Shown here one piece after another: positions 2,863 through 50,869 of a DNA stretch of 64,000 nucleotides (positions are counted from its first letter, which is position 1; each line of letters starts with the position of its first letter). The stretch covers positions 76,804,096 through 76,868,095 of the forward strand of contig CM065802.1 of assembly GCA_033398695.1 (NCBI GenBank). Direction: 5' to 3'. The notes beneath the pieces are model-generated. The model did not search any database, was not told where the DNA came from, and saw nothing but the letters and a program-made list of their open reading frames with translations. This stretch comes from Orobanche coerulescens (taxonomy: Eukaryota; Streptophyta; Magnoliopsida; Lamiales; Orobanchaceae). Made by a program: the position numbers and the translations under genes.

Positions 2863-3284
2863 CATAATGTTGACTCAAAGTATTTTGATGATGATTGGAT
2901 TCAAAACATTTAACAAAATTCATCTCAACGGGCTGTTTCATTGAAGTCAAAACATGCTACTAGCGCACGCTACACATTCAGAATAGCGCACGCTATCGAG
3001 GTCAATATGCAGACTGTGATACCCCATAGTAATAAACCGGGTGATTTTATATTTTGTGAACCGTCGCATAAATTTGGTTATCATGTCGGAGTTGAAAATT
3101 ATAGCACCCGTGTTGTTTAGAATAACAAACTTGAATTTTTAATTACGAAGTGGTACTATATATTGTATATATAATGTTCTATACGTCACCGTCGTGTCAA
3201 CATTCATTGAGATGAGATAGAGATAATAATTCGGATAGTTATAATGATATACATATAGGGATATGAAGAGAAAAGGGATAAGGA

Positions 3285-9515: not shown

Positions 9516-10732
9516 TATTGGAATATTTATTCCACACATTATTTAATGTGTTTTGATGATTAAAGTTGCTAAACAACAAAACAACATTAAGGCGAAGCAA
9601 AATGACGATGCAGACGAAGATGCAAAAAGTTGCAATCTGGACTGCATTAGCGCACGCTAAGGCATATATGTTAGCGCATGCTAACGAGGAGTAATCTGCA
9701 TTCCAGCCAAGTTTCGAAGTAAGCTGCAGTGAAGTTAGCTGATGGGATAGCGCACGCTACACGTTATCATTAACGCACGCTATCGAGCCTTGTTACCGTT
9801 GTGAAGGAATTCAAACACAGAATGACGTATGCAATGAAGTCAGCATTAGCGCACGCTACAAAGTATGATTAGCGCACGCTAAGATGTTTGAATCAAGTCA
9901 ATCCGAACGTTGGGAAAAGCAAGTCAAAGTCAGCATATCAAACGGATACTTTGACAATCCAGGCAACGGATATATTGTATTAGCGCACGCTACAATGTGC
10001 TATTAACGCACGCTAATACAAGAAGGTTACGTACGTAAGGCAGAAGGCATAACGTACGCTAAAGAAGAAACGAAGCTACTGGACTGAAACTAAGAACAGT
10101 CTAGCGCACGCTACAGGCACGCTAAAATATTAGCGCACGCTACCAGAGGAAGGCTAGCGCACGCTAGCAAGTCAAAACAGCCAGCAACGGCTAGTTTATG
10201 GGAAATGCCTATAAATACCATTCCTATGGTATTGGTTGAGTACAACAACTTCAAGCAAACAAGATATTCATCTGAGAATCATATTCTTACATTGTTGTTG
10301 TAATATTGAGATTATATTGTTAGTTTGAGTGTTTATACATTCAACATTATACACGAGCGAGAAAAAGAAAAGATACGATTTGATTCGGTGTTATTAGGAT
10401 CAAGGATCCGGCATTGTTAGAATCACAATCGCTATCTTAGTGAGGTTTAGCTAGTACCGATAGAAAGCTAGAGTGGTTGATTCCTTATCCAATAGAAAAG
10501 GAAAAATGGTTTTTCTCGGACCGATAGAAGACGAGCTTGTAACGGTAATCCCTCGACCGATAGAAGAGAGGCATAGAGGTTTTGATCTTAAGCCTAAGGA
10601 AAAAGATACATCGAGAGAGGACGTAGGCTTCGTTAATAGCCGAACCTCTATAAATCCTTGTGTGATTTATTTTCCGCAATTTATTTACGCTTCCGCACAA
10701 AACGGCGCAAATATCCGATTTGGTACCCAACA
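9516..10732 (+). repeat. 5' LTR of element C (1217 bp)
   Basis: It begins TATTGGAATATT, a mutated form of the TGTTGGAATATT seen at the 3' LTR, and ends TTGGTACCCAACA. It contains the palindrome array and a TATAAATA box at 10210. A run of about 45 bp near 10069-10118 differs strongly from the 3' LTR, while the rest is nearly identical. Confidence 0.93.
9648..10217 (+). promoter_or_regulatory. Paired palindrome array and TATA box in the 5' LTR of C
   Basis: Sites related to TAGCGCACGCTA come in pairs. Starts are 9648 and 9672, 9748 and 9771, 9847 and 9870, and 9981 and 10004. The within-pair offsets are 24, 23, 23 and 23. More sites lie at about 10050-10165. TATAAATA at 10210-10217 follows about 50 bp after the last site. 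The 3' LTR has the same arrangement, with TATAAATA at 13483-13490. Confidence 0.78.
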
Positions 10733-10734
10733 AT

Positions 10735-10746
10735 TGGTATCAGAGC
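10735..10746 (+). other. Primer-binding site of element C
   Basis: TGGTATCAGAGC begins two bases after the 5' LTR. It is an exact match to the usual site complementary to initiator methionine tRNA. Confidence 0.88.
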
Positions 10747-10790
10747 GGTACTCCAATACGCGGCTTAATATCCGAGGAGAATAAGATCAA

Positions 10791-12335
10791 ATGGCATTTC
10801 AAATGGCTCCAGTCGAAGGCCTTGCTCTCAACAGACCACCATTTTTTGATGGTGCGAACTTCATGACTTGGAAGAAGAAGATGTCGATATTCATTCGAGC
10901 TTACGACATCGAACTTTGGAAGGTGATTTGTCTTAGTCCCAAAATCCCGACAGACTCAAACGGAACTCTCAAAACCTTTGAAGAGTATGACGATGCGGAT
11001 TGGAAAAACGACCATTATAATTGCAAAGCGACGCAATTATTATACTGTGCTTTAAATCCGGAAGAACACAACCGGATATCATCGTGTGATAGTGCCAAAG
11101 AAATCTGTAAAATGCTTGAGGTAACACACGAAGGTACGTCTCAAGTCAAGGAGACGAAGATAAACATGCTCCTTCACGATTATGAATTATTCCAAATGAA
11201 GGACGACGAATCCATCTCAATTATGCTCGACCGATTTTCGGTCATCACTAATGGATTAGCATGTTTCGGAAAACCACTTTCGAGTAGTGAGAAAGTAAAG
11301 AAAATTCTCCGATCACTACCTCGAGAATGAGACGGTACGGTTACGGCAATAATGGAATCAAAAGATTTAAATACTCTCGATTTTAGTGCTCTCGTTGGTT
11401 CTCTTATCAACTACGAGATCGTTCTAAAATCTCGGAATGCCAAACCAAAACCGAAGGAAAAATCGATAGCCTTCAAGGCTAAAGTGCCGAGAAAGAAAGA
11501 AGAAATTCCGGTGGATGATAGCGACGAAGAAATGGCATACTATGCCAAGAACATTAATAAGTTCCAACACTTATTAAACCGAAGAAAGAAGGACATCCAA
11601 GCGGGCGAATCAAAGAAACCCGACAACACTTGTCGATTATGTGGTAAACCAGGCCACTTTGCTAAGAATTGTCGAGTAAAGCAAAAGGAGGTTCTAATCG
11701 CAACATGGAGCGACGAAGATCCCGATGAAGATTTTCTTGAACAAAATAATATCGCGCTCATGGCCCGGAGTTCATTCGACGATAGCGACGTCGAAAGCCA
11801 AGTAAGTAACTCATACGACGAACTCTTTGAAGCATTCGAGTTATTACATACGGACTATCAAAATGCTTTAAATGAAATTAAATCCCTCAAGTCTAAATAT
11901 AAAACTTTGGAAGTTGAAAACTCCAAAATACTTGAAAAAGGGAAATCTGTCGAAATCGATCATTCGAAATGCATTGAAAATGAGAATATTTTAAAAAATG
12001 ATCTTTTAAAAGTTCAAGATGAACTAAAAATTTTGACAAAGAAATTCTCGTGCGGCAACGATAAATTTGAACAAATGTTATGTGTTCAAAAATATACTTT
12101 AAATAAAGAGGGGTTAGGATTCAAACCACGTTCGAAAAACGAATCCGTTAATTTCAAAATACCCCGATGCGAAAAATGTTTGAAAATCGGGCATCACATT
12201 TCAAATTGCAAAAGCCCAAGACGGACGATAAAAATTAAAAAGATTTGGGTTCCTAAAGGAACAAACATTTCAAATATCGTCTACGTTTCAAAAGAAAAAC
12301 CCACTATAGGTTGGATCCCCAAAAATAAATTTTGA
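10791..12335 (+). pseudogene. Copia gag of element C, one in-frame stop
   Basis: The ATG at 10791 starts MAFQMAPVEGLALNRPPFF and the NFMTWKKKM block, as in the gag of element A. One TGA at 11328 interrupts the frame where A has Trp (PREW), consistent with TGG changed to TGA. The frame then runs open to 12335. It has a CCHC knuckle CRLCGKPGHFAKNC (11631-11672), a long Lys/Glu-rich coiled-coil-like region and a second knuckle CEKCLKIGHHISNC near 12170. The end, WVPKGTNISNIV then GWIPKNKF, resembles the region just before protease in SIRE-type polyproteins, so pol was lost immediately after gag. Confidence 0.88.
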
Positions 12336-12788
12336 CAAATGATATTTTACAAAAGGGGAGAAGGGATATTTTTGAGGGAAAATAATATTTTCAGGGGGAG
12401 TTTATTCCCTTATTAATGCATAAATTGGTATCATGCATATTTATATTTCATTTGGTATCCTTTATATTTTTTCTTTTTGATGAAAACAAAAAAGGGGAGA
12501 AAGATATGAATTGAGATAAAAAGGAGAAGGAGATGAATTGAGATAAAAATGAGAAAAATCGAAGAAGTCGAAAAGAAAAGAAAAGCATACAAATAGGGGG
12601 AGTTTAAAAATTGAAAAATGAAAAACGACGGAGTCGAAAAATAAAGGAGATTTTGAAAAGAAAAGAGAAGTGGAGAAACTAACGAAACGATCAAAGCCGA
12701 AAACTTTGATTCGTATAAATATACATATATTATTTTTTACAGATTATCCAATTCAAGAGTTGTTTTGTAATCATCAAAAGGGGGAGAT
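12336..12788 (+). other. Purine-rich untranslated tail and polypurine tract of C
   Basis: No coding frame was seen. The stretch has repeated AAAAGGGGAG and GGGGGAGTTT purine runs at about 12350-12605. It ends in a polypurine tract AAAAGGGGGAGAT at 12776-12788, directly before the 3' LTR. Confidence 0.8.
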
Positions 12789-14005
12789 TGTTGGAATATT
12801 TATTCCACACATTATTTAATTTGTGTTTTGATGATTAAAGTTGCTAAACAACAAAACAACATTAAGGCGAAGCAAAACGACGATGCAGACGAAGACGCAA
12901 AAAGTTGCAATCTGGACTGCATTAGCGCACGCTAAGGCATATATGTTAGCGCATGCTAACGAGGAGTAATCTGCATTCCAGCCAAGTTTCGAAGTAAGCT
13001 GCAGTGAAGTTAGCTGATGGGATAGCGCACGCTACACGTTATCATTAACGCACGCTATCGAGCCTTGTTACCGTTGTGAAGGAATTCAAACACAGAATGA
13101 CGTATGCAATGAAGTCAGCATTAGCGCACGCTACAAAGTATGATTAGCGCACGCTAAGATGTTTGAATCAAGTCAATCCGAACGTTGGGAAAAGCAAGTC
13201 AAAGTCAGCATATCAAACGGATACTTTGACAATCCATGCAACGGATATATTGTATTAGCGCACGCTACAATGTGCTATTAACGCACGCTAATACAAGAAG
13301 GTTACGTACGTAAGGCAGAAGGCATAACGTACGCTAAAGAAGAAATGAAGCTCTTGGTGGCCAGGAGCAGTCTAGCGCCACGCTTCTGAGCACGCTAAAA
13401 TATTAGCGCACGCTACCAGAGGAAGGCTAGCGCACGCTAGCAAGTCAAAACAGCCAGCAACGGCTAGTTTATGGGAAATGCCTATAAATATCATTCCTAT
13501 GGTATTGGTTGAGTACAACAACTTCAAGCAAACAAGATATTCATCTGAGAATCATATTCTTACATTGTTGTTGTAATATTGAGATTATATTGTTAGTTTG
13601 AGTGTTTATACATTCAACATTATACACGAGCGAGAAAAAGAAAAGATACGATTTGATTCGGTGTTATTAGGATCAAGGATCCGGCATTGTTAGAATCACA
13701 ATCGCTATCTTAGTGAGGTTTATCTAGTACCGATAGAAAGCTAGAGTGGTTGATTCCTTATCCAATAGAAAAGGAAAAACGGTTTTACTCGGACCGATAG
13801 AAGACGAGCTTGTAACGGTAATCCCTCGACCGATAGAAGAGAGGCGTAGAGGTTTTGATCTTAAGCCTAAGGAAAAAGATAAATCGAGAGAGGACGTAGG
13901 CTTCGTTAATAGCCGAACCTCTATAAATCCTTGTGTGATTTATTTTCCGCAATTTATTTAAGCTTCCGCACAAAACGGCGCAAATATCCGAGTTGGTACC
14001 CAACA
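12789..14005 (+). repeat. 3' LTR of element C (1217 bp)
   Basis: It starts TGTTGGAATATT and ends TTGGTACCCAACA, the same length as the 5' LTR. Differences from the 5' copy are few except for a cluster around 13345-13395. Confidence 0.93.
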
Positions 14006-16091
14006 AATGAAACAGAGAAAGAAAAAAAAGAGATAGAAATGCATAAGCAGGAAAAGAAAGAAAGAGAGAGGAGGAGGAGTTCCCGTGTTGTTCGTATTAA
14101 CGAGTAGATCGTGAATATGTATTTAGATTTTCAAACCGATGTCAGATTTGTCCCAACGGGGCAAGAAACGGTAATGCCGTCGACTTGCCCGTACGGACTC
14201 TCCGGTTGTCGGAATTTCACAAACTTCATATCATTGCGAAGGTTTCGTCGCAAGGGGCTCGTTTCTGTCCTGAGTGCGAAGTTTCATAGCTGTTTGGTGA
14301 GGCGTGTGTGTGACGCGTGTATGTGTGTGTTACGTGTGTTGTGCTTGTGTCGGGTGTGTGTGTTGTGCTGGTGCTGGGCGTGTGTGTGGTGTGTGTGTGT
14401 TCCGTGTGTGTATGTGTGTGATTGCTCGTGTGTGTAGATGTGTGTGTGTGTATGAGATTGTTGTGTGTGTGTGCTAGGCCGTAGGTGTGTGTGTATGAGA
14501 AAGTGTGTGTGTGTGTGGTGTATGTCGGGGTGTGCCGACTTGGACGATTGATGTATTTTTATATATAAAAATAGTGTTAGTAGATGTTAAAGAAGTTCCC
14601 AGTGAGGTTACGATGGACCGGGAGACGTTAAAATGACTATTAGATAGTCATATAAAGTTTTGAGGTGGAAAACTTAAATTTTGAAAACCCATGGCTAAGC
14701 CATTTGAGAATTAGAAATAAAGTTGGACTTGATTGAAGTTTTCTAAATCTTCAATTTGACCCCAGTACTTTAATATTTTCTTTAAAAGTGTATAACCTTC
14801 TTGGTTTCAATCCAAAATGGGTCAAACGACTGCCAAATGGCTCCTAATTCAAAACACAACATTCTCACACCCTCATAACACGCAGAGTGCATCCGTAACT
14901 ATGTCTCACCTAGACTCGGCTAAATTGGGATGTAAATTTCTAATAGTTATATAAATCTTAACCCGCTGAACATATAATATGATTCGTTTTAGGTTGAAGG
15001 TTTGGCTAATCGATCAGTCTATTTTCCTTGTCAATCGAACCTTTTCCATTAGCTGGAATGCCAGACAAGTACTTTGATTATGGTTGATGTACTTCGTGTG
15101 AATGAATATGTGAAAAATGTGTTTTCTGTGAAATGTGGGAATATCAGAAAATGTGATTTTAGAAAGTGGTGATTTCTGTGTTTTGTGACGTGTGTAATCA
15201 GCGGAAGTGTGAAATTATGAATATTCAGTATCATTGTGCATTGACATGAAATAATATGTCATAAACATGCGTTGCGGAGCGGAAAATAATGAACATGTGA
15301 AAAATATGGTTGCGAATATTCAATATGGTTTGTGACATGTGTGATCAGTGAAAATGTAAATTTGAGGATATTCAGTATCATTGAGCATTGACATGAAATA
15401 ATATGTCATAAACATGCATTGCGGACATTGCGAAAAAATCCAAGTAAGCGACTTGTGTTGGCCAAAAGAGCCGAGCGGAATGGGCCTGTGTGCGTGAGTC
15501 ATGGCATGCATGGGAATTGCGTTGCATTGCACATAAAATAATGATGATTGTGGTATTATATTCCAGAATATATGTGATGGCAGTGTGATTTGGATGTTTA
15601 TTCATTTGTAGTACATACTCATGAATCGTTGTACTTGCACCGGCTATTTGCTGACCCCTTCGGGGGTGAATATACTTGTTGTGTATTCAGGTGCAGGTCT
15701 TAATGGCGAACCAGCGCAGGAAGGACACGAGGATGGCGAGCAACACTGATATCATGCACTATTTGAGTATGTGGTCGTACTGTTGAGAACCGAGTTGTGT
15801 TTTGCCTTCTGCTCGCGCGAGTACTGTCGGGTAATGTGGGTTGTTTGTGGTTCAGTCATTTTAATGATGTTATTGTGTCATTTGGAGTCCCACAGGACAG
15901 TGTATTGTTGAGTGCTGAAATGTATATGGTTTGAAGTTGAGTATTATTAATGCATGTGTGGATTTATATTGGTTTCAGCCTCGTAGGTTCTCCAAAAAGA
16001 ATCTACGGCACTGTAATATCTCTGTAAATCACGGGGGCATTACACAGACAGGCAAGTCACCTGCAGACAAGTTGGAAATCTACCTGATGGT

Positions 16092-16835
16092 TAGCGCACA
16101 CAAGCTTCTCTTATCAGCGCACGCTAGTTGCCAAAATTAGCGCACGCCACCATATGTCTAGCGCACGCTATCGCATCGCATTCAGAGAGGACAGTAAGGT
16201 CTGGACAGAAAAAGAAAAACATTTGAGCACGCTATGAAAGAACATTTGCGCACACTATTCAGAAGCCTAGCGCACGTTAAACTAAAATATTTGGGCACGC
16301 TAACTGGAAGCATATTGGAGGTCCAATAGCTTCTGGACTCTAGCAAAGAAGCAGGAAGCGCACACTACTACAAGCTAACGCACGTTATCTGGAATACATA
16401 TAGCGCCCGCTACACAATACTTGTTAGCGCACGCTAAGTGTTCAAAATTCTACCATTAGTCAATTTATCCGTTGGAACGCAGAAGTCAAAAAGGAAATCC
16501 GGAAAATCTGGAAAGCAAATATTAATTATTACTAGCGCACGCTAAGTACACTTACTAGCGCACGCTAAGTGCAATTTTATCCGTTGGAAAAGAGACGTTG
16601 GGGAGACAAACCGACACAATCCAAAGATAGAAGAGAAGACCTGTTGACCAACCGATAACGCACGCTACAGAGGGCTGTCTAGCGCACGCTAGACATGTAT
16701 TTTTACCGTTGGAACAGTTTACTGACCGTTCAGATCAGCCAAGTCAAAGCACGATAACGCACGCTATAAAGGATTATTAGCGCACTCTAAAAATACATTT
16801 TTCAGCATATGAAGAAGGACTGGAGCCTATAAATA
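16092..16835 (+). promoter_or_regulatory. Phased palindrome array and TATA box in the 5' LTR of A
   Basis: Near-palindromic sites related to TAGCGCACGCTA start at 16092, 16115, 16138, 16159 (offsets 23, 23, 21), at 16223, 16246, 16268, 16291 (23, 22, 23) and at 16356, 16376, 16401, 16425 (20, 25, 24). More sites follow to about 16790. The TATAAATA box is at 16828-16835. The 3' LTR has the same layout with its TATAAATA at 24503-24510. Many copies differ by C-to-T or G-to-A changes at CG positions. Confidence 0.75.
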
Positions 16836-17424
16836 CTCATATCATTTGGGTATCCCAACACACAACTCCAAGAATTCAAAAGCATTATTGAGCTCAGATT
16901 ACTATTGTTCACTGCATTCTAAAGTTGTGTCAAGAAAAGATACAAGTGCTATACACATTGCTATATTCTATATATTTTGTATCTTCTTTATTTGTTGTGA
17001 GTATTGCATTACTCCTTCAATGATCTTGAGTGAAACGAATCAAGAGTTACTAATCCGGTGTTATTAGGATCTTTGATCTGGCATTGTTAGGATAACACTC
17101 TAACATTCGTAAGTGAGGATTGTCTAGTTCCTATAGAACACTAGGTACAAAAGTTTATTTTTGAGAGTGGTTGTGCTTGGACCAATAGAAGACAAGCGGT
17201 TGTAACGGTTGTGCTCGGACCGATAAAAGACGAGACAAATGTGTGTGGTTTTTCTTAAGCCAATAGAAAAAGAAGTCGGAGAGAGGACGTAGGCAAGTTG
17301 CCGAACCTCTATATATCGTTGAGTCTTTTACTTTCCGCACATTTTAATCTTATTCGCAAGAAAGTTTAATATTTCCCATTACCACTATTCAACCCCCCTT
17401 CTAGTGGTAAATTTATCTCTTCAG

Positions 17425-17440
17425 TTGGCATCGGAGCGGG
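17425..17440 (+). other. Primer-binding site of element A
   Basis: TTGGCATCGGAGCGGG starts two bases after the 5' LTR. It resembles the TGGTATCAGAGC site complementary to the 3' end of initiator methionine tRNA, with two transitions. The position and resemblance support reverse transcription priming by that tRNA in the ancestral element. Confidence 0.8.
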
Positions 17441-17485
17441 TCTCTTTCTAAGGCGTTAAACACCTAAGGGAAAAAGATCCGCAAA

Positions 17486-18484
17486 ATGGCTTAATTGGGA
17501 CAAATCGAAGGAAATACTCTCAACCGTCCTCCGTTCTTCGATGTCTCCAACTTTATGACCTGGAAGAAGAAAATGGCAATATTCGTTCAAGCCTATGATA
17601 TTGAAATCTGGAAAGTCATTGCTCTCGGTCCAAAACTCGCCAAGAAAGAAGATGGGTCGCTCAAAAAATTTGATGAGTTTAACGATGAAGATTGGAGGAA
17701 TACACATATAAATTCTCGCGCTACTCAACTCTTATATTGTGCTCTCAATCCCGAAGAACTCAATAGGATATCTTGCTACAAAAGTGCGAAAGAAATTTGG
17801 GAAATCCTCAAAGTTACTCATGAAGGAACCACCCAAGTCAAGGAGACCAAAATTAACATGCTACTTCATGACTACGAACTCTTCTCCATGAAAGACGAGG
17901 AAACGAGCACAAACATGTTGGATTGATTTTCGGCTATAACCAACGGGCTTGCATCCTTTGGAAAGCATATATCTAGTAGCGAGAAAGCTAAGAAAATTCT
18001 TCGCTCGTTGCCACGAGAATGGGATGTTATGGTGACGGAAATCATGGAGTCCAAAAATCTCAACAAACTTGAATTTAGCGCCCTCATCGGGTCACTCATC
18101 AATTATGAGATCGTGCTCAAGTCAAGAGGCACTAAACCAAAGCCTCGTGAAAAAGTAGTCGCATTCAATGTTGATAGCAATGTTGAGGAAGATGTTCCCG
18201 AAGATGAAGATGACGAAGAACTTGCTCTCTACGCCAAGAATTTTAGAAGGTATAAAAATCTAATTCAAATAAGGCGAAGTTTCCTTGGTCGGGACGGCAA
18301 GGCAGAGCAAAAGAAGAATGGCTATGTTCCTATAAAGAAGTTCGACAATAATTGTCGAAAATGTGGTCAAGTAGGTCACTACGCTAAAGAATGTCGAGGA
18401 TCCTCTTCAAAGCCTCAAATCGAAAGATTCAAAAATAAGGAGGTTCTAATCGCTTCTTGGAGTGATGATGATGAGGAGATTTAA
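17486..18484 (+). pseudogene. Copia gag of element A
   Basis: The ATG at 17486 is followed by TAA as the third codon. The reading then holds RPPFFDVSNFMTWKKKM, typical of the copia gag-polypeptide (UBN2-like) family, and a CCHC knuckle CRKCGQVGHYAKEC at 18353-18394. Stops in the same frame are TGA at 17924, where element C has CGA (Arg), and TAA at 18482 before the protease. The frame stays open between these stops, so the damage is mostly point substitution. Gag would form the virus-like particle in an active copy. Confidence 0.88.
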
Positions 18485-21400
18485 AGATCTCTCGACGCAA
18501 ATCTCGCATTTATGGCGCTCCACTCAGAAAGCAATATCGAGGTACCGGGACCAAAGAAAATCAAGTGGTACATTGATAGTGGGTGTTCATGGCACATGTA
18601 CGGATCCGAGGGATTATTTGAAGACCTCGAATATCAAGAACAAGGACATGTGACCTTTGGCGACAATCAAAAGGGAAAAATTAAGGGCAACGGAAAAGTC
18701 GGTAAGGAAACTTCTCCCTCCATTAATAAAGTATTATTTGTTGAAGGTTTGCATCATAATCTACTCAGCGTTTCTCAACTATGCGATGAAGGTTTTAAAA
18801 TTCTCTTTGAACAAACGCATTGCACGGCATTTAGAAATAATAAAATTGCATTTATCGATTTGAGATGTGGAAACATTTATATTGTTGATCTTAATGATAA
18901 AAGTTCATTTAATGAAAAATGCCTTATTACCTTAGATGATAATACATATTTATGGCATCGAAAATTGGGGCATACATCTCTACCTATCATTTCTATTTTA
19001 TCGAGACATGATCTTGTTCGTGGATTACCCAAACTCAAATTTAATAAGAAACATTTGTGTGAATCTTACATAAAAGGGAAGCATACTCGAGAATCTTTCA
19101 AACCAAAATTCGAGTTTTCCACTAGTCGCATTCTTGAACTTGTGCATATGGATTTGATCGGACCATCTAGATATGTTAGTCTAAATGATAAACTTTACAC
19201 TTTGGTTATTGTTGATGATTTTTCTCGATTTACTTGGGACAGATTTCTAGCTCATAAAGATGATGCATTTTCCAAGTTCTCTAAATGGTGTCGTTTGGTA
19301 CAAAATGAGAAAAATCTTTCCATAATTTCTATCCGTACCGATCACGGAGGTGAATTTGATTGCACTCCGTTTGAACTTTTATGTGACAAATATGGTATTT
19401 GTCACAATTTTTTGGCTCCTATAATGCCTCAACAAAATTGGGTTGTTGAAAGGAAAAATCGTTCTTTGGAGGAAATGTCAAGGACTATGCTTAACGAATA
19501 CTCTCTTCCACAATATTTTTGGGCCGAAGCAATTTTTACGGCATGCTATGTAATCAACCGAGTTCATATTTGTAGAACTCAACTTAAAACCCCGTATGAA
19601 TTATGGAAGGGCAAAAAGCCAAATATATCTTACTTTCATCCTTTTGGTTGCAATGTGTTCATTTTAAATAATGGTAAGGATAACTTGGGGAAATTTGATG
19701 CTAAATCCGACTCCGGAATATTTCTTGGTTATGATACAAATAGCAAAGCATATCGTGTTTATAACATTAGAACCAATAAAGTTGAAGAATATATTCATGT
19801 TAAATTCAAAGATATGATCTCACCCCCGAGAAAGGTAGAATGTTTTGATGATGCAGGTATTTTCCCGGATTCTCATTCCTCAAATGAAATGGAGAAAATT
19901 TCGGAAATCTAAAAGAACACAATTTAGGACTTACCGAAAGATTGGAAGCACATCAAAGACCATCCAAAAGATCTCGTGATTGGAAATATCGAAGACGGTG
20001 TTCAAACTCGAAGGAGAACCACCGAATATATTGCTTACTTTGCCTTTGTATACGGGATTGTTCCCAAAAATGTATCTGAAGCTCTTGATGATGAAAGTTG
20101 GGTAATGGCTATGCAAGAGGAGATCGTTCAATTCGAATGAAATAAAGTATGAATTTAGTTCCCCCGCCTAATGATAAAACTATTATCGGAACTAAATGGG
20201 TGCACAAAATCAAGTGTGACGAAGACGGCTATCCCATAAGAAATAAATCTCGTTTGGTCGCTCAAGGATATAGTCAAGAAGAGGGTCTTGACTTTGAAGA
20301 AAGTTTTGCACCTGTAGCTCGACTCGAAGCCATCTGGTTGTTATGTGTCTTTGCAGCTCACAAAAAGACCAAGCTATTCCAAATGGACGTGAAAAGTGCA
20401 TTCCTAAATGGCTTTATTCAAGAAGAGGTGTACAGCAACCTCCCGGATTCAAAGATTATCAGTTCCCAGATTTCCTCTACAAACTCAACAAGGCGCTCTA
20501 CGGTTTGAAACAAGCATGGTATGATCGTTTAAGCCAATTTTTAATTGCTAATGGTTATAAAAGAGGTAAAGTCGATAATACCTTGTTTGTGAAAATATTA
20601 GATAATGATATACTTGTTTGCCAAATTTACGTTGATGACATTGTTTTTGGAGCTACTAATGAATCCTTGTGCCAAGACTTTTCTAATCTTATGAAAGGAG
20701 AATTCGAGATGAGTATGATGGGAGAATTAACATTATTCCTCGGGCTTCAAATTAAGCAATGCGAAGATGGAATCTTTATTCATCAAACGAAGTACTCACA
20801 CGATATTCTCAAAAAATCCAAAATGGAGAGTAGCAAAACGATTTCAACGCCGATGTCTTCTTCGTTGAAATTAGATAAAGACGAAAATGGCAAATATGTG
20901 GATCAAAAATTATATCGAGGTATGATCGGATCCTTGGTATATTTAACTACCTCCGGACCGGACATAATATTTGCTATGTGTTTATATGCTCGATTTCGGT
21001 CTAATCCTAAAGAATCTCATTTGATTGCTTGTAAACGTATCTTTCGTTATTTAAAAGGGACCATTGGTCTAGGTCTATGATATCCTTCTTTCTTGGATTT
21101 TAATCTGCTTGCATACAGTGACGCCAATTTCGGCGGATGTAAAATTGATAAAAAGAGTACTAGTGGTACATGTCACTTCATCGGTTCATGTTTAATATCT
21201 TGGGGAAGTAAAAAGCAAACCAGTGTAGCTATGTCTACAGCTGAGGCCGAATATTTTGCAGCAGGGAGTGCCTGTGCGCAGGTATTATGGATTAAAAATC
21301 AACTCCGCGACTACGGCATTTATTTTGAAAATACCCCTATTTTATGTGACAACACTAGTGCAATTAATTTGAGCAAAAATCATGTGCTGCATAGTAGAAC

Positions 21401-21578
21401 TAAACACATTGATATTAGACATCATTTTTTGCGGGATCATGTTCAGAAAAAAGATATATGTTTAATTTTTGTCGGCTCAAAAGATCAATTAGCCGATATT
21501 TTTACAAAACCTCTACCTGAGGAATCTTTTAATTCTATTCGATTACAACTTGGTATGGGACATCTTGATAATTTTTAA
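18485..21578 (+). pseudogene. Copia pol of element A (protease, integrase, RT, RNase H)
   Basis: Protease is marked by YIDSGCSWHM near 18570. The pre-integrase finger shows LWHRKLGHTS and the integrase shows HMDLIGPS, then RTDHGGEF and VVERKNRS. RT follows with [12 protein letters not shown] and the catalytic YVDD at about 20630. RNase H has YSDANFGG and CDNTSAINLSKN and ends at 21578. Breaks are TAA at 19910, TAG at 19925, a frame change near 20148, another near 20430, a three-residue gap in KQA-WYDRL compared with the usual KQAPRAWY, and TGA at 21078, where a Trp codon is expected. Gene order puts integrase before RT, which defines Ty1/copia. Confidence 0.9.
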
Positions 21579-21626
21579 AAGTCCTTTGTCTTCGAGAAAT
21601 CATTTCATGCGACACTTTCCATACCT

Positions 21627-21850
21627 TAGCGCGCGCTAGACCTTTCTTATTAACGCGCGCTCTCCAGTATAACTTGCATCAATTTGAGCCCGATAGCGCA
21701 CGCTAAAGGCTTATATTTACGTGCGCTAGTAATCGTTCTTTCATATTCCTGGACGTCACCGGACAGTCCAGTAAGCCCCCATTTCAATCTTAGCATATGC
21801 TAACAAAATTCCACAGCGTACGCTAACACATTTTTTTTACCTACAAAAGG
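21627..21850 (+). promoter_or_regulatory. Internal palindrome array upstream of the env-like ORF of A
   Basis: Between the pol stop (21578) and the env-like ATG (21962) lie the same sites as in the LTR. They start at 21627 (perfect TAGCGCGCGCTA), 21651, 21694, 21717, 21791 (TAGCATATGCTA) and 21814, with pair offsets of 24, 23 and 23. A weak TATA-like ACAAAAGGG follows near 21842. The layout copies the LTR promoter arrangement and suggests a second promoter, which is inference. Confidence 0.55.
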
Positions 21851-21961
21851 GAAAATCGGCAGAATCCTTTAAGAACCCTAAATTACTTTTCAGCCTCCGA
21901 AAAACTCAAATCGCCCAATTCATCCAATCCAAAAAAATTCGTCCAAAACACTCAATCAATC

Positions 21962-23130
21962 ATGGCAAGCGGTTCTAGAGTACCTATGAAAAAGCAATAC
22001 AAGAGTTCGAAAAGAACCCGTGAGCCCGATTTTGATCCCAATCGGTTCGTCTCCTCCACAGCCTTCAAAATTTTTTTCAGAAATTCTTCCTCAGGAACAC
22101 TTGACCGATTGCTACTTCTTCAATTTTGGAAGCTTAGAAAGAGCAAAGGTAAACATACGTGAATTTTTTGATGCCTTGGTTATCGCTCGGTTTGTGGAAT
22201 GTAAGGAAATCATTTACCCTACCTTTGTACGATAGTTCTTTGCAAACTTGCATCTGGGAGACAGTGAAGGATCGTCTGGTTTAGTGCTTCGTAGTGTTGT
22301 TAATGTAATGGCAGTGAAGGTTTCTACGGAAATTCTTCACGGATTGTTTGGATTGACGGTGGAGGGTTTTGTTCGGACCTGACAGAGATTGAGGTTACCG
22401 AATTCTTGAGTTCGAAAGCGGTCATCGAGATAACCGATGAAGTATTCTAAAACAATGATTTCGGTATCCAAATCCGCTTGTTGTTAGTCGCCCTTACCAA
22501 GTGTTTGATGCCGAAGATCAATACGCAACACAAACTCGTCGGCATCGATAAGCATGTGGTGTACCGGGTCTTGAATGAAGATAAGGTGGATTTCGCTTCG
22601 ATTGTTATCAGTTAGATGAAGGTGAAAGGAGATTCGTTCCGTTCGAAGCATTATATCTTAAGATCGAGGAAAGTTGGGTTGCCGTTTGGTTCTATCCTTA
22701 CGGTTCTGTTTATACATTTTGCTATTGATCTTTCCGGAGAGGCATCGATTCCGGTGTCTCGGGGACATGAGATATGTGACCTTAGCCTCAAAGCGATGCA
22801 TTATGTCGAAACTATCAATAGAGGTTGGGTACTATTTTCTTATCTCCGGGAAGACGATCAAGTTCCAAAGGGAACGCGTATACCGCCATTGGCCGAACGC
22901 ATTTTTAGGTGAGGACTAGAAACGATTGGGGAACTCCAAACCGGAACGTTTGTCCGTCCTCCGAAAGTTAAGGGAAAGCGAAAGGTGGTGATAGACGAAT
23001 CTGAGGAAAATGATCTTCTTGCACGGATGCGGAGTCTCGAGAGTTCGCAAGTCGAGATTCGTGATGAAGTAAAGGCTCTCCGCTCCGACGTATCTCGAGA
23101 CATCAATTCGGTCAAGCATCTTTTGGAATA
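21962..23130 (+). pseudogene. Env-like third ORF of a SIRE-type copia element, decayed
   Basis: An ATG at 21962 opens a basic N-terminus (MASGSRVPMKKQYKSSKR), followed by RFVSS. After a frame change near 22070 the reading continues with KFFSEILPQ and KVNIREFFDAL, then FFANL and LHGLFGL. Later comes KVGLPFGSILTVLFIHFAIDL near 22670, which resembles the plant transposon-protein domain found downstream of pol in SIRE-like elements. A coiled-coil-like stretch (about 23020-23130) ends it. Stops and frameshifts are numerous. Whether this ORF ever acted as an envelope protein is unproven for the whole lineage. Family assignment rests on position and weak motifs. Confidence 0.65.
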
Positions 23131-23564
23131 ATTCATTCAGTTCACCAACCCGTCCTTTTCGTTTCCTACTTCTGCCGAAAACCCTTGGTGTCTCACGTCT
23201 CGATCCTCGTTTAAGACAAATGCTTTTGATGTATTTTGATATCTCTTTGTTTCCCATTATATGTTTGCATTTTTAGTGGTTTGACTTTGAATGATATAAT
23301 ATTGTATCTTGATGTACCCCGGCTAATGTTATTTGCTTTACTAATGAAGTTAAATTTACGGCTTTACTTGCGTTCGATTTGTCGTATTTTATATTCTTTT
23401 TATGATGGCTACGATTAAGGGGGAGTACCTTTTTGATCTTGTCAAAAAGGGGGAGAAAATACTCTACAAAAACCAAACACTAACGTACTCGAACAAAATT
23501 CTTTGATTCGAAATTTTTCCTAAAATGGTTTTCGAAGGCATATATTAAATATTTTGACATCATC

Positions 23565-23578
23565 AAAAAGGGGGAGAT
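23565..23578 (+). other. Polypurine tract of element A
   Basis: AAAAAGGGGGAGAT directly precedes the 3' LTR start TGTTGACTC at 23579. A very similar AAAGGGGGAGAT precedes the 3' LTR of element C. This is the expected site for priming of plus-strand DNA. Confidence 0.85.
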
Positions 23579-25669
23579 TGTTGACTCAAAGTATTTTGAT
23601 GATGATTGGATTCAAAACATTTAACAAAATTAACCTCAATGGGCTGTTTCATTGAAGTCAAAACATGCTACTAGCGCACGCTACGCATTCAGAATAGCGC
23701 ATGCTATCGAGGTCCATATGCAGACAGGCAAGTCACCTGCAGACAAGTTGGAAATCTACCTGATGGTTAGCACACGCAAGCTTCTCTTATCAGCGCACGC
23801 TAGTTGCCAAAATTAGCGCACGCCACCATATGTCTAGCGCACGCTATCGCGTCGTAGTCAGAGAGGACAGTAAGGTCTGGACAGAAAAAGGAAAACATTT
23901 GCGCACGCTACGAAAGAACATTTGCGCATGCTATTCAGAAGCCTAGCACACATTAAACTAAAATATTTGCGCATGCTAACTGGAAGCATATTGGAGGTCC
24001 AGTAGCTTATGGACTCTAGCAAAGAATCAGGAAGCGCACGCTACTACAAGCTAAGCACGTTATCTGGAAGACATATAGCGCACGCTACACAATACTTGTT
24101 AGCGCAAGCTAAGTGTTCGAAATTCTACCGTTCGTCAATTTATTCATTGGAATGCAGAAGTTAAAAAGGAAATTCGGAAAATCTGGAAAGCAAATATTAA
24201 TTAATACTAGTGCACGCTAAGTACACTTACTAGCGCATGCTAAGTGCAATTTTATTCGTTAGAAAAGAGACATTGGGGAGACAAACCGACACAATCCAAA
24301 GACAAAAGAAAAGACCTATTGATCAACCGATAACGCACGCTACAGAGGGCTGTCTAGCGCACGCTAGACATGTATTTTTACCGTTGGAATAGTTTACTGA
24401 TCGTTCAGATCAGCCAAGTCAAAGCATGATTACGCACACTATAAAGGATTCTTAGCGCACGCTAATAAAACATTTTTCAGCATATGAAGAAGGACTGGAG
24501 CCTATAAATACTCATATCATTTGGGTATCTCAACACACAACTCCAAGCATTCAAAAGCATTATTGAGCTCAGATTACTATTGTTCACTGCATTCTAAAGT
24601 TGTGTCAAGAAAGATACAAGTGCTATACACATTGCTATATTCTATATATTTTGTATCTTCTTTATTTGTTGTGAGTATTGCATTACTCCTTCAACGATCT
24701 TGAGTGAAACGAATCAAGAGTCACTAATCTGGTGTTATTAGGATCTTTGATCCGGCATTGTTAGGATTACACTCTAACATTCGTAAGTGAGGATTGTCTA
24801 GTTCCGATAGAATAATAGGTACAAAAGTTTATTTTTGAGAGTGGTTGTGCTTGGCATGGTTCTAAAAAACGCTAGGCGTTAGGCATTCGGATTGCTAACG
24901 CCTAGCGCCCAGAGGATTACTCGGGGATTAATCGGGGAATAATCGGACTAGGCGGATTTATTTTTTATTATTATTTTAATATTTTTTATATATAAAAAAT
25001 TATATATATGTAAAATAATTAAAAATAATTAAAATTTAACCATTTAAACAGATATATAATCAATTATATATTAAATTTGAAATACTGATATAGATATCAA
25101 TGAGTCCATATTATCCATAATATCTCAGTTTAGAAATTTGTAGTACTATTAGAACAAAATAAAAAAAATAAAAAAGTATAACCGCCTAGTCATCCGCCTA
25201 GTCGCCCACGTAGCTAGGAAATTTGAAACGTTGATATAGGTATAAAATAGTCCGTAGTATCTTATATTACCTTCATAGGTCCCAGCAGCCAGCCTAGACG
25301 ATCGATTCGTTACCCAAACGCCTAGTACAAGCGCCTAGGCCATAATCGGAACGGCCGAGGACCTTCTAGGGATTAATCGGAGGATTAATCGGCTTAGGCG
25401 GGGATTTTTAGAACACTGGTGCTTGGACCAATAGAAGACAAGCGGTTGTAACGGTTGTGCTCGGACCGATAGAAGACGAGACAAGTGTGTGTGGTTTTTC
25501 TTAAGCCAATAGAAAAAGAAGTTGGAGAGAGGACGTAGGCAAATTTCCGAACCTCTATATATCGTTGAGTCTTTTACTTTCCGCACATTTTATTTCTTAT
25601 TTGCGAGAAAGTTTAATATTCCGCATTACCACTATTTAACCCCCTTCTAGTGGTGAATTTATCTCTTCA
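23579..25669 (+). repeat. 3' LTR of element A, carrying a hAT insertion
   Basis: It starts TGTTGACTCAAAG, ends CTCTTCA and matches the split 5' LTR over its whole length. It is 2091 bp because a 564-bp hAT element plus an 8-bp duplication sits at 24855-25426. Scattered differences from the 5' LTR, largely transitions, indicate an old insertion. The next five bases are the cataa duplication, and then the integrase of G continues. Confidence 0.92.
24855..25418 (+). mobile_element. hAT-1: non-autonomous hAT transposon, 564 bp
   Basis: The 8-bp duplication gtgcttgg flanks it at 24847-24854 and 25419-25426. The 5' LTR of A lacks the insert and has one gtgcttgg copy. Inverted termini are CATGGTTCTAAAAA at the left and CAGTGTTCTAAAAA read from the right. 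Subterminal motifs such as GATTAATCGG and GCCTAGGC recur. The interior is AT-rich with no coding capacity. The 8-bp duplication and CA-type ends fit hAT. The strand is arbitrary. Confidence 0.92.
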
Positions 25670-26484
25670 CATAAGGCGTTGGGTACTCGTTTGTGTCTGA
25701 GTAATTCTTTTCATCCTCAGTCAGATGGGTAGTCGGAGTGGACTATCCAGAAATTTGAGGATATGTTGCGCGCTTGTGCTCTCGACTGGAGCAGTGACTG
25801 GGAGGAGCATTTGCCATTGATCGAATTCACGTACAACAATAGTTGGCACGCGTCGATTCGAATGGCACCGTATAAGGCGCTTTATGGGCGGCATTGTCGA
25901 TCGCCGATTTGTTGGAATGAGGCGTCCGATTTGGTCAGGACCGAACCGGATATCGCTTTAGAGATGAGGCGGAAGGTGGAATTGATTCGGGAACGGATGT
26001 TGACTGCTCAGAGTCGATAGAAGTCGTATGCCGACGTCCGTCGTCGACCTTTGGAGTTCGAGGTGGGAGACCACATTTTGCTAAAGGTGTCACCGACGAG
26101 AGGAGTTTTACGCTTCGGGAAGAAGGGAAAGTTAAGTCCGAGATTTATTGGCCCTTTGAGATTCTCGAGCGAGTCGGTGAGTTGGCATACCGTTTGGCGT
26201 TACCTCTGGCCTTGAGTCACGTTCATAGCGTTTTCCATGTTTCCCAGCTGAGGAAATATGTTCCGGATCCTAGTCACGTCAGCGACTATGGTGATATCGA
26301 TGTCGCCGAGGATATTACCTTCGAGGAGCGTCCCATGAAGATTTTGGAACACCGCGAGAAGCGACTGAGGCATAAGACCATTCCTTTGGTCAAGGTGTAG
26401 TGGTCGAGGCACGGTGTTGAGGAGGCTACTTGGGAAACTGAGGATAACATGTGTGCTAGGTACCCCGAGTTGTTTGATTCTTAA
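25670..26484 (+). pseudogene. Gypsy pol, second part (C-terminal integrase and chromodomain-like tail)
   Basis: This continues the integrase cut at 2862. It holds the third acidic residue region (FHPQSDG followed by SE), the helix LPLIEFTYNNSWHASI, and the GPF-type element with SHVHSVFHVSQLRKYV. It ends in a chromodomain-like segment, VEEATWETEDNM, then YPELF. Breaks are a TAG in place of Gln before SEWTI, TAG at 26018, a frame change near 26155 and TAG at 26398 within VKV-stop-WSRHG. All three TAGs sit where relatives carry CAG. The stop at 26482 is followed by the GACGAAACTT stretch and the 3' LTR. Confidence 0.88.
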
Positions 26485-26770
26485 GTTTCAGGACGAAACT
26501 TATTTTTAGAGGGGTAGAATGTAATATCCGAATTTTTCTTTCCCGGTATTATCATTTTTGGTGTATTTTTCATTTTTAGTGACTCACTTGTAACCGTATT
26601 GGTATTTCGAGAACACCTATTTCTGGACTTTTTGTCATCTGATTCTCGTAATTGTTATTTGGAACCACCGTTTCGGGGTTGCCGTAGATCCATCTAATGT
26701 TACTATGCTTGTTGTGAGCTTGATGTTTCGTTCGTGTTTCGGTGTTTTGGGGCCGTTATTATTCCGTGCC

Positions 26771-27162
26771 TATCGCGTGCTATTATTCTTGTTTAGCGCA
26801 CGCTAAGTACCATATAGTAGCGCACGCTACATTTGCTTCGTAGCGCGCGCTAGCGAGTCGAGTCTGGCAGTGGCAGTGAGTTTGTTCTGGCCTCTGCTCT
26901 CTGGACGAACAGATTAGCGCATGCTAAGAATTTGTCTTAGCACACGTTAATGTCGAGGGTTAGCGCACGCTGACTGTCCAGGTAGCGCGCGCTAATCTGG
27001 CAGTCCAGTACTGGATAATTTATTTCTGGATTCGGTTAGTTGCCCAAGTAGCGCACGCTATGTCCCGATAGCAGACCGAGACGCTGTTAGCGCATGCTAA
27101 ATTTTGGGTAGCGCACGCTAACCGTAACCGTTATCGCGCGCTAAGCTGTGTAGCTATATATA
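26771..27162 (+). promoter_or_regulatory. Phased palindrome array and TATA box in the LTR of G
   Basis: Sites related to TAGCGYRCGCTA start at 26771, 26794, 26818, 26841, then 26915, 26938, 26961, 26983, then 27049, 27088, 27109 and 27132. Offsets inside the runs are 23, 24, 23; 23, 23, 22; and 21, 23. The TATATATA box at 27155 lies 23 bp after the start of the last site. The forms at 26841 and 26983 are the perfect palindrome TAGCGCGCGCTA. The position fits U3 enhancer-like sites; the function is inferred. Confidence 0.75.
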
Positions 27163-27761
27163 CCCGAGAGTTGACCTTAGACGCGTCTATTCTTCATTTC
27201 ACATCCTTCCCCGTGGCTTTGACGATCTTTGGGCGATTTCTTGGCGATCTATTCTTCCAATCATCTCAACCATCATCTTCTTCGAGTTCTTGGTGTATAT
27301 TAGTGACACCAACACGTGTTCTTCGTCTTCAATCTGAGGTAAGCTCTAGAACCCTATTTTGGGGAGATTTAAGGGTTTTCACATTTTCGTCCGATTCGTT
27401 CCGTGTTGTTGATTAATTCATGATGAATATGATTAATCTTGTTGGTATTCTTAGTTTTCCTATGGATTCAAGGTATATTTCGTGGTATTTGCGTAATCGA
27501 GAGGGTTTGGTTGTGGTCCACCCTCGTTCTTGTTCTTGTACGAATATACATGAGTCGTAGGCGGGTTTTTGGGTGTTTTCCATCTCCATATTCGTTTAGA
27601 AATGGTTGTAATTATATTCTTCGAATCGTTAGGTTCGGTTTCGTCGGTTCCTAGCGATCGTGTTTGATTCCTTCTGTTCGTGTCGTCGTCAATTACTCAA
27701 GACAATTATTTTTGGAAACCTTTATGCTTAACATGAAATGGTAATTTGTATTGTGTGCTTT

Positions 27762-27990
27762 GCTCACCTCGGGAGGGTCCGACGGGGCCTCGAGGGAATC
27801 TATGACTTCACTCTGGATTCACGAGTTTGATTCGCTAGCCAGCTCGGGAGGGTCCTTAAAGGCCTCGAGTGGGATCAGTGGCTTCACCCCGGTCCTAGGC
27901 GATGCCTGTGCGTGATTTGTTTTATGATATGGCCAGCTCGGGAGGGTCCTTACTCCTTAGAGGCCTCGAGTGGGACCAGTGGCTTCACCC
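27762..27990 (+). repeat. Three-copy tandem repeat in the LTR of G
   Basis: Units with GCTCGGGAGGGTCC and GGCCTCGAG start near 27762, 27841 and 27933, with spacing of about 80-90 bp. The same unit type occurs twice in each LTR of element D and four times in solo LTR H, so copy number varies among related LTRs. The short ORFs across these repeats are not considered genes. Confidence 0.7.
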
Positions 27991-28744
27991 TGGTCCTAGG
28001 CAAATTGATTGTTGACTGTTTGTTCCGAAAAAGACATGTCTGGTTTTGGTTTTGAAATGAATTTGGTGCATTGTTCTATGAAATGTGTAAGCAAATGGTT
28101 TTCCATAATTACTTGTACTAGCGTAATTGCTAACCCCTCTGGGGACCCGTTTTGGGGAAATTCTTGTTATGGATTTCAGGTTATGTTCAGCCGGAGGAGC
28201 GGGCGCTGGGACAGTATGAGGATGCTGGCCAGGGTCGTTGACATATGCATTTGAGTCTTTTTATTTACGTTGTTCTTTCGATATGGTTGTTGTCTACCTT
28301 ATAAATTTATAGATTGTACTGGCGAGTACTTAGGCTTTTCCCTTCGGATTGTTGTTTGAAATCGTTGAAGTTAATTATGTTTGTCGGTGTTGATTATTCC
28401 GTCGTTGTACCGGGCGTGTTATTTGATTTTCATCTGGATGATGTGTATATTTACTGTGGTAATTCGTGTCTAGCCTGGTGGGTCCCATGTAGGGGTACAC
28501 AACACTGTAATATACCTCGAATATCTCGGGGGTGTTACAGTTGTAGTGTTTGTCGAGTGAGACTTGTTGTTGCGTGCTTTTCTTTGATTTAATGTGTGTG
28601 TATGTGTGGTTTGGTATGTTATGTTTCGTAATTTTCTCATTATTGTTTTGAATCATAGCCGGTGCATTAGTGTGACCGAGACGTTGCCGAACACCTAACC
28701 GGACCATCGGAACGATCGAGTCCTGACCGCAGGGCCTGGCCGAG

Positions 28745-29019
28745 TTACGGCCGCAATGCAGTGCCTGTTACGGCCGCAATGCATGGCCAGTTACGGCCGT
28801 AAGGCACCTGCACAGGTTAGGCAGCAGCCCAGGGTTGATCGGTTATGGCCGTAATACCTTGCCGGGTACGACCGTAATGCCCTGTTACGGCCGTAAGGCG
28901 TTGCCTGGTAACGGCCGTAATATGCCGAGCGAATTAGACAGTACGATCGAGTAGGCCGATTACGGCCATAATACACTACCGATTACGGCCGTAAGAGCTC
29001 GGCAGTTTGGGTATATAAG
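28745..29019 (+). promoter_or_regulatory. TTACGGCCGTAA array and TATA box in LTR remnant E
   Basis: Sites start at 28745, 28768, 28791 (offsets 23, 23), then 28843, 28866 (23), 28885, 28909, then 28960, 28983 (23). The forms at 28791, 28885 and 28983 are the perfect palindrome TTACGGCCGTAA. Others show single changes, mostly C/T or G/A. TATATAAG follows at 29012. The motif differs from the one in G, but period and placement are the same. Confidence 0.78.
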
Positions 29020-29982
29020 GGCTGGGCGCGGGTGCAGTCGGCATTTTTCCTCATTTCTTCATCTCTTTCGCGATCCTTCAACAAGATTCGAGGGTTTTGA
29101 CTGGCACATCTTTGAGGATCATTTGGGAAGATTGCTTGGTGTCTATTATCATCATCTTCCAAACCCTTGTTGTCCGGATCGAAGGTCATCCCTTGTAATT
29201 TCCTAGAATTGATTTTTCGGAGGTTATTTCTCAATTTCGTTGATTCATCCGATTCTGATGGAAAGGATGATGTTGTTGGGCATCGTGGATCATGATTTAC
29301 GGATTGTATATCCGTATCTTGAATTCGTTTGAGTCCAAACTTGATTTTCATGTTCGTAGGGAGCCTTGAGCATTTAATGTCCGATTAAATGTCTCTAAGG
29401 GTTTTCCATTGGTTCTTGGGTGCGTTTCTCGTCATTGTTAACCGTTATACTTGTAGTTGTAATATCTGCAATTTTGATTTCCAGTATTTTTCTTTATTTG
29501 GCGAGATTCCATTTTGACGACTCGCTTGTGACCGTTTTGTCATTTCGAGAATGATTAATTCTGCACTTTTTGACATCCGAGTTCGTTTCGGTGTCGTTTT
29601 GTTGAGTTCCGTGTTCTTAGGCGACTTTTCCGCACTTGATTTTGATTCTTGCGAATCTCGTCCGAAACTGTTGTTTCAAGTTTCTCATAAGTTCATTTAG
29701 CGTTATTATTCATGTTGCGGGCTTATATTTGGTGTTTCGATCATGTATAGTGTATTTCGGACATTTTGGGCCATTTTCGTAATTTCCCAAAGTTTAGGGT
29801 AATTACTTCATTTGTCGAATTTTGAAATTTCGAGTGGTCGAAATCATATGTTCTATTAGTGCTTAGATTCGTCTTTACGAGTACTTCGTAACCGTATCTT
29901 CGATTTATATTCAGGTTTGGGTTTCGGGGTCGTTCGAGCCAGTTTGGACAGCAAAATCCTTAATCTGCTGTCCAATGCAGAC

Positions 29983-30080
29983 ATACGGCCGTAACTTGCT
30001 ATACTTACAGCCGTAACTTGCTTTACTTACGGCCGTATCTCTTGTTATGTACGGCCATACATACCAGTCTGCCTTATATC
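29983..30080 (+). promoter_or_regulatory. 22-bp phased TTACGGCCGTAA array in the 5' LTR of D
   Basis: Four sites start at 29983, 30005, 30027 and 30049, each exactly 22 bp from the last. A TTATATC box lies at 30074-30080, 25 bp after the start of the last site. The 3' LTR repeats this with starts 35329, 35351, 35373 and 35395, again 22 bp apart, and a TATAT at 35421. Confidence 0.8.
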
Positions 30081-50698: not shown

Positions 50699-50869
50699 TT
50701 AAATAGCCGATCACGGCCGCCTTTACGTACGTAATCGCCATGGCTTACGACGAATCGCCATGGCGAACTCACGCCTAGAAATGCCGGAAACGTTACGTGA
50801 CAAGCACGGCTGTGGCCTTACGTACGTAATCGGCCTTATGTACGTAATCGCCGAGCACTACGGCCGTAA
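50699..50869 (-). promoter_or_regulatory. TTACGTACGTAA-type palindrome cluster and TATA-like box in H
   Basis: Perfect TTACGTACGTAA sites start at 50723 and 50818, with TTATGTACGTAA at 50836 and CTACGGCCGTAA at 50858. Weaker forms lie at about 50711, 50744 and 50792. Read on the minus strand they precede a TATTTAAG at 50699-50706. Spacing is less regular than in D or E. Confidence 0.65.

Follow-up and report, generated by a model that had tools for sequence, protein, structure and literature searches.

Paired 12-bp palindromes upstream of TATA-like boxes in copia and gypsy LTR retrotransposons of Orobanche coerulescens and a candidate VANC-like reader

Arrays of 12-bp palindromes are present in the long terminal repeats (LTRs) of copia and gypsy retrotransposons in a 64,000-nucleotide stretch of the Orobanche coerulescens genome (contig CM065802.1, positions 76,804,096 to 76,868,095; in the following, the window). 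Within these arrays the palindromes are organised in pairs spaced about 23 bp apart. The fixed spacing is common to the two superfamilies and to different motifs, as an earlier note on this DNA had stated. The arrays are real and occur genome-wide, and both sites and spacing have been held while the spacers changed. Their known counterpart is the repeated motif (RM) box of Sireviruses (Bousios et al. 2010, PMC2829016). It is possible, at a chance that we place a little below even, that the paired palindromes are read by an element-encoded protein resembling VANC, the anti-silencing protein of VANDAL transposons.

Four motif classes are distinguished, T1 (TAGCGCACGCTA), T2 (TTACGGCCGTAA), T3 (TWACGTACGTWA) and T4 (GTGCCGCGGCAC). 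An array was defined as at least three sites with gaps of at most 120 bp, and isolated pairs were therefore missed; up to two mismatches were allowed in sampled loci (designated by L and a number) and up to three to four in the window list, and one LTR copy each of copia A, copia C and LTR Y entered each count. The five arrays of the earlier note sit where it had placed them; its elements C and A are here copia A and copia C, and its G, E and D are LTRs X, W and Y. Among the ten non-redundant window arrays, 47 of 82 consecutive offsets are 22-24 bp, compared to a mean of 6.2 and a maximum of 16 in 2,000 random placements. In 22 sampled arrays the value is 81 of 153 (null mean 11.7, maximum 24 in 2,000), a count that includes two LTRs of one element, the second of which (L042:6489) was dropped from the 31-array group count given below. 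The predicted excess over random was thus found in both sets. When palindromic centres in the window were collected without assuming a motif (5 of 6 pairs matching), the largest count fell at lag 23 (23 vs 1.9 expected), with 11 vs 1.7 at lag 22; eleven further lags between 8 and 53 were flagged with 6-12 counts each. Genome-wide there are 1,017,744 exact copies of T1 and 184,551 places with T2, against 56 and 83 for the respective control patterns read backwards. T1 pairs at exactly 23 bp in the same orientation number 131,744 (control, 0), and T1 followed by reversed T1 occurs at 9,675 places, a figure that covers one of the two opposite arrangements and the 23-bp distance only. An unbiased sample of twenty random 10-kb stretches (200 kb; 20 of 100 prepared places, from the first 70 Mb of each of contigs 1-10) contained 43 exact T1 sites, with about 56 expected from the genome count. 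Among palindromic 12-mers with 5 of 6 pairs matching and three or more G/C, the 25 commonest were listed, and three of these showed a repeated offset, namely T1, T3 and, at 21 bp, T4.

For the analysis of grouping, sites were joined when they lay at most 26 bp apart. The 31 arrays then resolve into 101 groups, comprising 19 single sites, 43 groups of two, 9 of three and 30 of four, and none larger. The 73 even-sized groups compare with 40.8 (sd 4.6) after shuffling of offsets within arrays, and 0 of 5,000 shuffles reached this number; groups of five or more averaged 11.3 in the shuffles, 0 of 5,000 of which were as low as the observed zero. The rule was framed on this set and then tested on ten arrays from loci L001-L030, whose sequence had not been analysed beforehand except that exact T1 positions were already listed. 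These arrays yielded 48 groups (13, 19, 1 and 14 with one to four sites, respectively, plus one of six), 33 of which have two or four sites vs 16.5 (sd 3.4) in shuffles. With one array per family, a set of 19 that we picked after the offsets had been seen, 52 of 66 groups are of two or four vs 24.2. In the 30 tetrads the outer offsets are tight (22.6 bp, sd 0.93) and the middle one is variable (21.9 bp, sd 2.1, range 18-25), a difference not matched in any of 5,000 within-tetrad shuffles, which argues for the pair as the working unit. Groups are separated by 29-199 bp, mostly 42-118 bp. The 21-24 bp values listed in the earlier note are correct, and the long gaps between groups had been omitted: the complete offsets are 23, 23, 52, 23, 19, 24, 51, 23 for W and 23, 24, 23, 74, 23, 23, 22, 66, 39, 21, 23 for X. 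Single sites are perhaps decayed pairs; a search beside odd groups (18-25 bp, at most 4 mismatches) found a partner in 7 of 51 windows vs 1 of 51 and 4 of 50 controls, a weak hint. Helical phasing, with all sites on one face of the DNA, was considered and dropped, because by reasoning offsets of 23 bp and 18 bp fail to keep one face.

In the window, copia A spans 9.5-14.0 kb. Its 5' LTR (9648..10166, plus strand, as for all features unless noted) carries 12 T1 sites, mostly in 23-24 bp pairs, with a TATA-like box 43 bp past the last site, and the 3' LTR (12923..13439) is a second copy with the same array. Copia C is split (2.9-3.0 and 16.0-25.7 kb): a T1 pair at the start of its 5' LTR (2961..2995) is separated from the remaining T1 array (16092..16789; groups of 4, 4, 4, 2, 2, 2) by a nested insertion at 3015-16044, and its 3' LTR (23672..24464) contains 19 T1 sites and a TATA-like box 38 bp past the last of them. 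The nested element is flanked by a 5-bp duplication, CAGAC, at 3010-3014 and 16045-16049, and copia A lies inside the same element. The sequence CCGTTGGAA recurs between the palindrome groups of the copia C LTR (16469-16477, 16581-16589, 16706-16714), and its reverse complement presumably resembles the plant M-phase (MSA) element. Gypsy LTR X (26771..27143) has 12 T1 sites in groups of 4, 4, 1, 3 and a TATA-like box 11 bp past the last one; LTR fragment W (28745..28994), for which 'gypsy' is the label of the earlier note, has T2 groups of 3, 4, 2 with similar spacers; and both copies of gypsy LTR Y (5', 29983..30060; 3', 35329..35406) bear a T2 tetrad at 22, 22, 22. On the minus strand are LTR Gm (40788..41254; 16 T2 sites in groups of 2, 2, 4, 4, 2, 2), relatives of which flank gypsy genes in L036 and L042, the decayed T2 array Hm (45325..45815; groups of 2, 3, 2) and LTR Z (50723..50869), which is related to Y (79-85% over the longer stretches of alignment) and has T3 sites (TTACGTACGTAA) and one T2-like site. 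Three T1 sites (23 and 21 bp) lie within an older LTR-like sequence at 6499..6554. The arrays at 2961-2995, 6499-6554, 35329-35406, 40788-41254, 45325-45815 and 50723-50869 are beyond the range of the earlier note. The gypsy elements gave gypsy-type reverse transcriptase (RT)/RNase H, integrase, SH3 and gag matches; X, Y and Z are placed tentatively in the Tekay/Del lineage, which is defined by RT phylogeny and chromodomain. In LTR Z a sequence of about 108 bp is tandemly repeated at 49403-49807, downstream of the promoter, where X and Y have related repeats. Elsewhere in the window, a 309-aa open reading frame (ORF) at 62196-63122 shows 50-64% identity to relatives from Orobanche gracilis and O. 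hederae and matches Transposase_28 (PF04195) below threshold.

One LTR family can carry different palindrome classes. LTRs Y (T2), Z (T3) and those of L031, L043, L046 and L047 (T1) are 80-92% identical across the initial 330-485 bases and once more downstream, and the intervening array region is unalignable between motif classes. More distant switches are found between copia A (T1) and L032/L050 (T3), between X (T1) and L037 (T4), whose flanks share 70-79%, and between Gm (T2) and L042 (T1; 69-76%). In L036 (5900-6560), a relative of Gm, longer palindromes of about 22 bp (CCGTGCCGATCGGCACGG type) were seen by eye in place of T2, and probably represent a fifth motif class. The tail offsets 51-55, 23, 18, 23 are common to five long arrays of the T3 class, each with at least 9 T3 sites and picked by us after the offsets had been seen; two of them precede gypsy genes (L038, L045), L043 is a 68% relative of L038, and one side of each of L032 and L050 aligns to the LTR of copia A (70% and 80%, respectively). 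Short T3 arrays of 3-4 sites (L045:1640, L046:1541, L050:3) are without this tail. Identity in the tails is 0.81 for sites and 0.32 for spacers, and the agreement in offset order between the gypsy and copia groups was equalled or bettered in 4 of 5,000 shuffles. Four related T1 LTRs show identities of 0.75-0.85 in sites, 0.54-0.77 in spacers and 0.88-0.94 in the 5' flank; evolution is fast across the entire array region, with the sites held.

The position relative to the promoter was examined in 17 arrays. A TATA-like box begins 23-29 bp from the start of the last site (11-17 bp past the site) in 13 of 13 non-copia LTR arrays, including X (23 bp) and W (29 bp), for which the earlier note had given these distances correctly, and 50-55 bp from it in 3 of 3 copia arrays; none was seen after the env-side array. 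The TATA pattern had been widened for the weak boxes of Y, Gm and Z after their sequences were seen. In the eight LTR arrays that have a TATA-like box (four are relatives), 70 of 72 oriented T1 sites show their central CA on the promoter strand, vs 10 to 9 in five arrays without such a box, in three of which the strand is arbitrary. The L050 array showed no TATA-like box behind it. In L038, L043, L045, L046 and L050 an inverted repeat with a TATA-like core (e.g., TGGCTATAAACTTAGCCA) adjoins T3 groups, often on the opposite strand from the other promoter, possibly a divergent promoter.

Copia A and copia C have the copia-type gag/pol of Sireviruses: RVT_2, SH3_retrovirus and rve domains were found in copia C, and Retrotran_gag_2 and a zinc knuckle only, with no pol ORF seen, in copia A. 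Three AGGGGGAG polypurine tracts precede each 3' LTR, one of them together with the AT/TG attachment site (12779..12790 in copia A, with further tracts at 12393 and 12595; 23569..23580 in copia C, with further tracts at 23418 and 23448); the combined sequence AGGGGGAGATTG at 12779 and 23569 did not occur in 100 shuffles. Both the tracts and the attachment site are described for Sireviruses (PMC2829016). Copia C in addition contains an env-like gene preceded by boxes. The earlier note saw no candidate protein in this DNA; the remains of such a gene, broken into frame pieces, do lie at about 21962..23131, downstream of three palindrome pairs (six sites, 21627..21825; 24, 23 and 23 bp). One piece (22616-22909) matches the alignment of family PF20167 (hhalign probability 93, E 3.3e-7, 62 columns), and Pfam searches of seven env-like pieces gave two weak, sub-threshold matches only. 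A comparable arrangement is found in L051, a contig of 3,046 bp binned with a bacterial metagenome-assembled genome from rumen, on which a sequence for copia RNase H (65% to copia C) is followed downstream by an intact 435-aa ORF with PF20167 (E 1.2e-22); about 150 bp before this ORF are four copies of TTGGGTCGACCCAA (0-2 mismatches, offsets 22, 16, 22), a tetrad of two pairs with a different palindrome. L051 presumably is plant DNA. Copia-type RNase H sequences were seen in five contigs filed under bacterial genomes (L051-L055), and L052-L055 contain no repeated perfect CpG palindrome. Structure models of two PF20167 proteins, from L051 and one other record, have VANC21 (9lnj) as best structural match, at a moderate similarity (TM 0.43, 4-11% identity), and lend tentative, model-based support to the analogy with VANC drawn in the earlier note; no relation to VANC was seen at the sequence level.

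These observations suggest that the palindromes are putative binding sites in the U3 promoter of the LTR. The working unit would be two 12-bp palindromes about 23 bp apart, a tetrad would be two such pairs, and each palindrome may be occupied by one dimer, two touching dimers thus covering a pair near the TATA box. The likeliest reader would be the env-like (PF20167) protein of Sireviruses, with a VANC-like domain and a coiled coil, which may act as VANC does for VANDAL by recognising its own motif cluster and opening or demethylating the promoter. For gypsy LTRs that carry these palindromes, the protein would be supplied in trans, and one LTR family could carry different palindromes because a change of class would be a change of reader. 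Binding by dimers and tetramers, anti-silencing and sharing in trans are what we infer from sequence and models. The wider proposal, that the PF20167 'envelope' genes of plants encode VANC-fold, sequence-specific anti-silencers reading paired-palindrome classes, and that copia and gypsy elements form exchange networks which switch class by replacement of the U3 array, is offered somewhat more tentatively still. Several points weigh against an element-encoded reader. The structural match is moderate, the folded proteins are from outside this genome, and the gene in the window is broken. In a Foldseek search with the first, full-length model, 9lnj was absent among the 35 matches listed and nothing reached E 0.001; in a comparison of the env-like profile with solved structures, 9lnj was absent from the best 60 of 148, with coiled coils on top. 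The VANC21 motif is a non-palindromic 9-mer (PMC5735166), and 4 of 13 box-bearing Sireviruses are without an ENV gene (PMC2829016), so that boxes need no ENV in cis. Single sites (19 of 101 and 13 of 48 groups) and threes (9 and 1) depart from the pair rule, and many arrays are interrelated, so the counts are not fully independent.

The strongest rival, a real possibility to which we give less weight, is a host transcription factor family that binds as dimer or tetramer, in which case copia and gypsy elements would have converged on its sites, the motif classes would reflect paralogues and the env-like protein would have another role. The box-bearing Sireviruses without ENV favour it, the site 11-17 bp before the TATA-like box in all 13 non-copia arrays suits an ordinary activator, and the gypsy ORFs with a Pfam match (4 of 10 scanned proteins) showed gag-pol domains only, no search having been aimed at PF20167 in gypsy elements. 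Against a host factor, boxes precede the env-like gene in both plants seen, fast motif switching within one LTR family is easier with an element-borne, fast-changing reader, and the env-like models resemble a sequence-specific anti-silencer.

The remaining readings appear far less probable. That the boxes are RNA or DNA hairpins formed by neighbouring palindromes, which feed into small RNAs or structure in the way suggested for the palindromes of maize Sireviruses, is improbable. It would fit the small-RNA mapping hotspots at the LTR palindromes of maize Sireviruses (PMC5311732) and an offset of 22-24 bp close to small-RNA length; however, the predominance of parallel over opposite T1 pairs (131,744 to 9,675) implies mismatches at the hairpin centre, and no clear compensation was seen between neighbouring T1 sites (8 of 91 deviating arm positions vs 5.4 with shuffled partners). 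The A/T positions of T3 confound a mixed-class count (56 of 304 neighbour-complementary, 20 self, 86 neighbour-identical). Tandem duplication of an approximately 23-bp unit, retained by chance, is more improbable still, and most arrays already contradict it. In W and Y the spacers are similar (identity 0.60), and local duplication therefore contributed there; in the whole set, 2.7% of 376 within-array spacer pairs reach 0.7 identity vs 0.5% of shuffled ones. Mean spacer identity, however, is 0.35 vs 0.30 shuffled, masking of the sites cuts exact 8-mer matches at lag 23 from 113 to 37, inside the range of other lags, and a slippage array would not end at two or four sites. The spacing is thus not explained by tandem duplication, which the earlier note had named as a refuting condition. 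Equally improbable, and already contradicted by the group sizes, is the open-ended 22-23 bp nucleoprotein array of that note. The dominant 23-bp offset agrees with it, but groups end at two or four sites with a variable middle offset and stretches of 29-199 bp between them, and five or more sites occurred in none of 101 groups and once, as a six, in 48.

As far as our searches show, four points are new: gypsy elements are among the carriers, sites follow a pair grammar with spacers free to vary, motif classes are switched, and the env-like gene has a possible link to VANC. In the open literature searched, no paper on plant LTRs, judged by title, was found for the motif words, and none that joins VANC with envelope-like, retrotransposon and DNA-binding; viral contigs yielded neither the paired motifs nor any RT relative. 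PF20167 has been reported in a sunflower Athila ORF, in a paper whose available text contains neither 'VANC' nor 'DNA binding'. For Sireviruses, no common RM binding factor could be named and the function of ENV had not been demonstrated (PMC2829016); the structural link to VANC21 offers one testable answer to both the role of the env-like gene and that of the boxes. If it is true, anti-silencing by element-encoded DNA-binding proteins extends beyond Mutator-like transposons, and unrelated elements share or compete for one reader in a genome with a million copies of a single 12-bp word. The pair rule provides an exact binding-site design for binding assays.

RM boxes of Sireviruses are high-copy palindromes that precede the TATA box within the upper half of the LTR and occur a second time ahead of ENV (Bousios et al. 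2010, PMC2829016). The arrays described here share with them the palindrome copies in both positions, the AGGGGGAG tracts and the AT/TG site. RM boxes were called Sirevirus-specific within Ty1/copia for the set compared, whereas gypsy LTRs carry boxes here as well, and the CGG-CCG core, found in 12 of 13 Sirevirus elements (PMC2829016), is present in T2 and absent from T1 and T3. The pair/tetrad rule and class switching within LTR families are further differences; for RM boxes, the available text states no spacing. T1 and T3 would thus work like RM boxes without bearing their signature. In p53 or MADS-quartet paired sites, two palindromes are each bound by a dimer and read jointly by a tetramer, a likeness of logic and not one of sequence or fold.

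Like the VANC/VANDAL system (Hosaka et al. 2017, PMC5735166), the arrays are short one-orientation motif clusters in non-coding parts of the element with motif turnover between related elements, and just as the VANC6 motif is shared with an unrelated element, the palindrome classes are common to unrelated elements here. VANDALs are Mutator-like DNA transposons with a non-palindromic 9-mer for VANC21, and VANC motifs spread by tandem repeats (PMC5735166), whereas most spacers here are unrelated. The carriers are LTR retrotransposons, and the system is therefore said to work like VANC and not to be one; VANC demethylates, as the putative reader here may do. The motif switching resembles the Tnt1 superfamily, in which U3 changes as a module at a higher rate than other parts of the element; Tnt1 is one copia superfamily, and the available text mentions no palindrome classes shared with gypsy (PMC1838419). 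Cruz et al. (2014, PMC4029996) described plastic 5' CpG islands in the LTRs of Del (Tekay) gypsy elements, likewise a CpG-rich stretch of variable length and sequence between better conserved parts. The eudicot Del elements of that study are described as without a CpG island, and wording in 'palindrom-' is absent from the main text, whereas the variable stretch in the O. coerulescens LTRs resolves into groups of palindromes.

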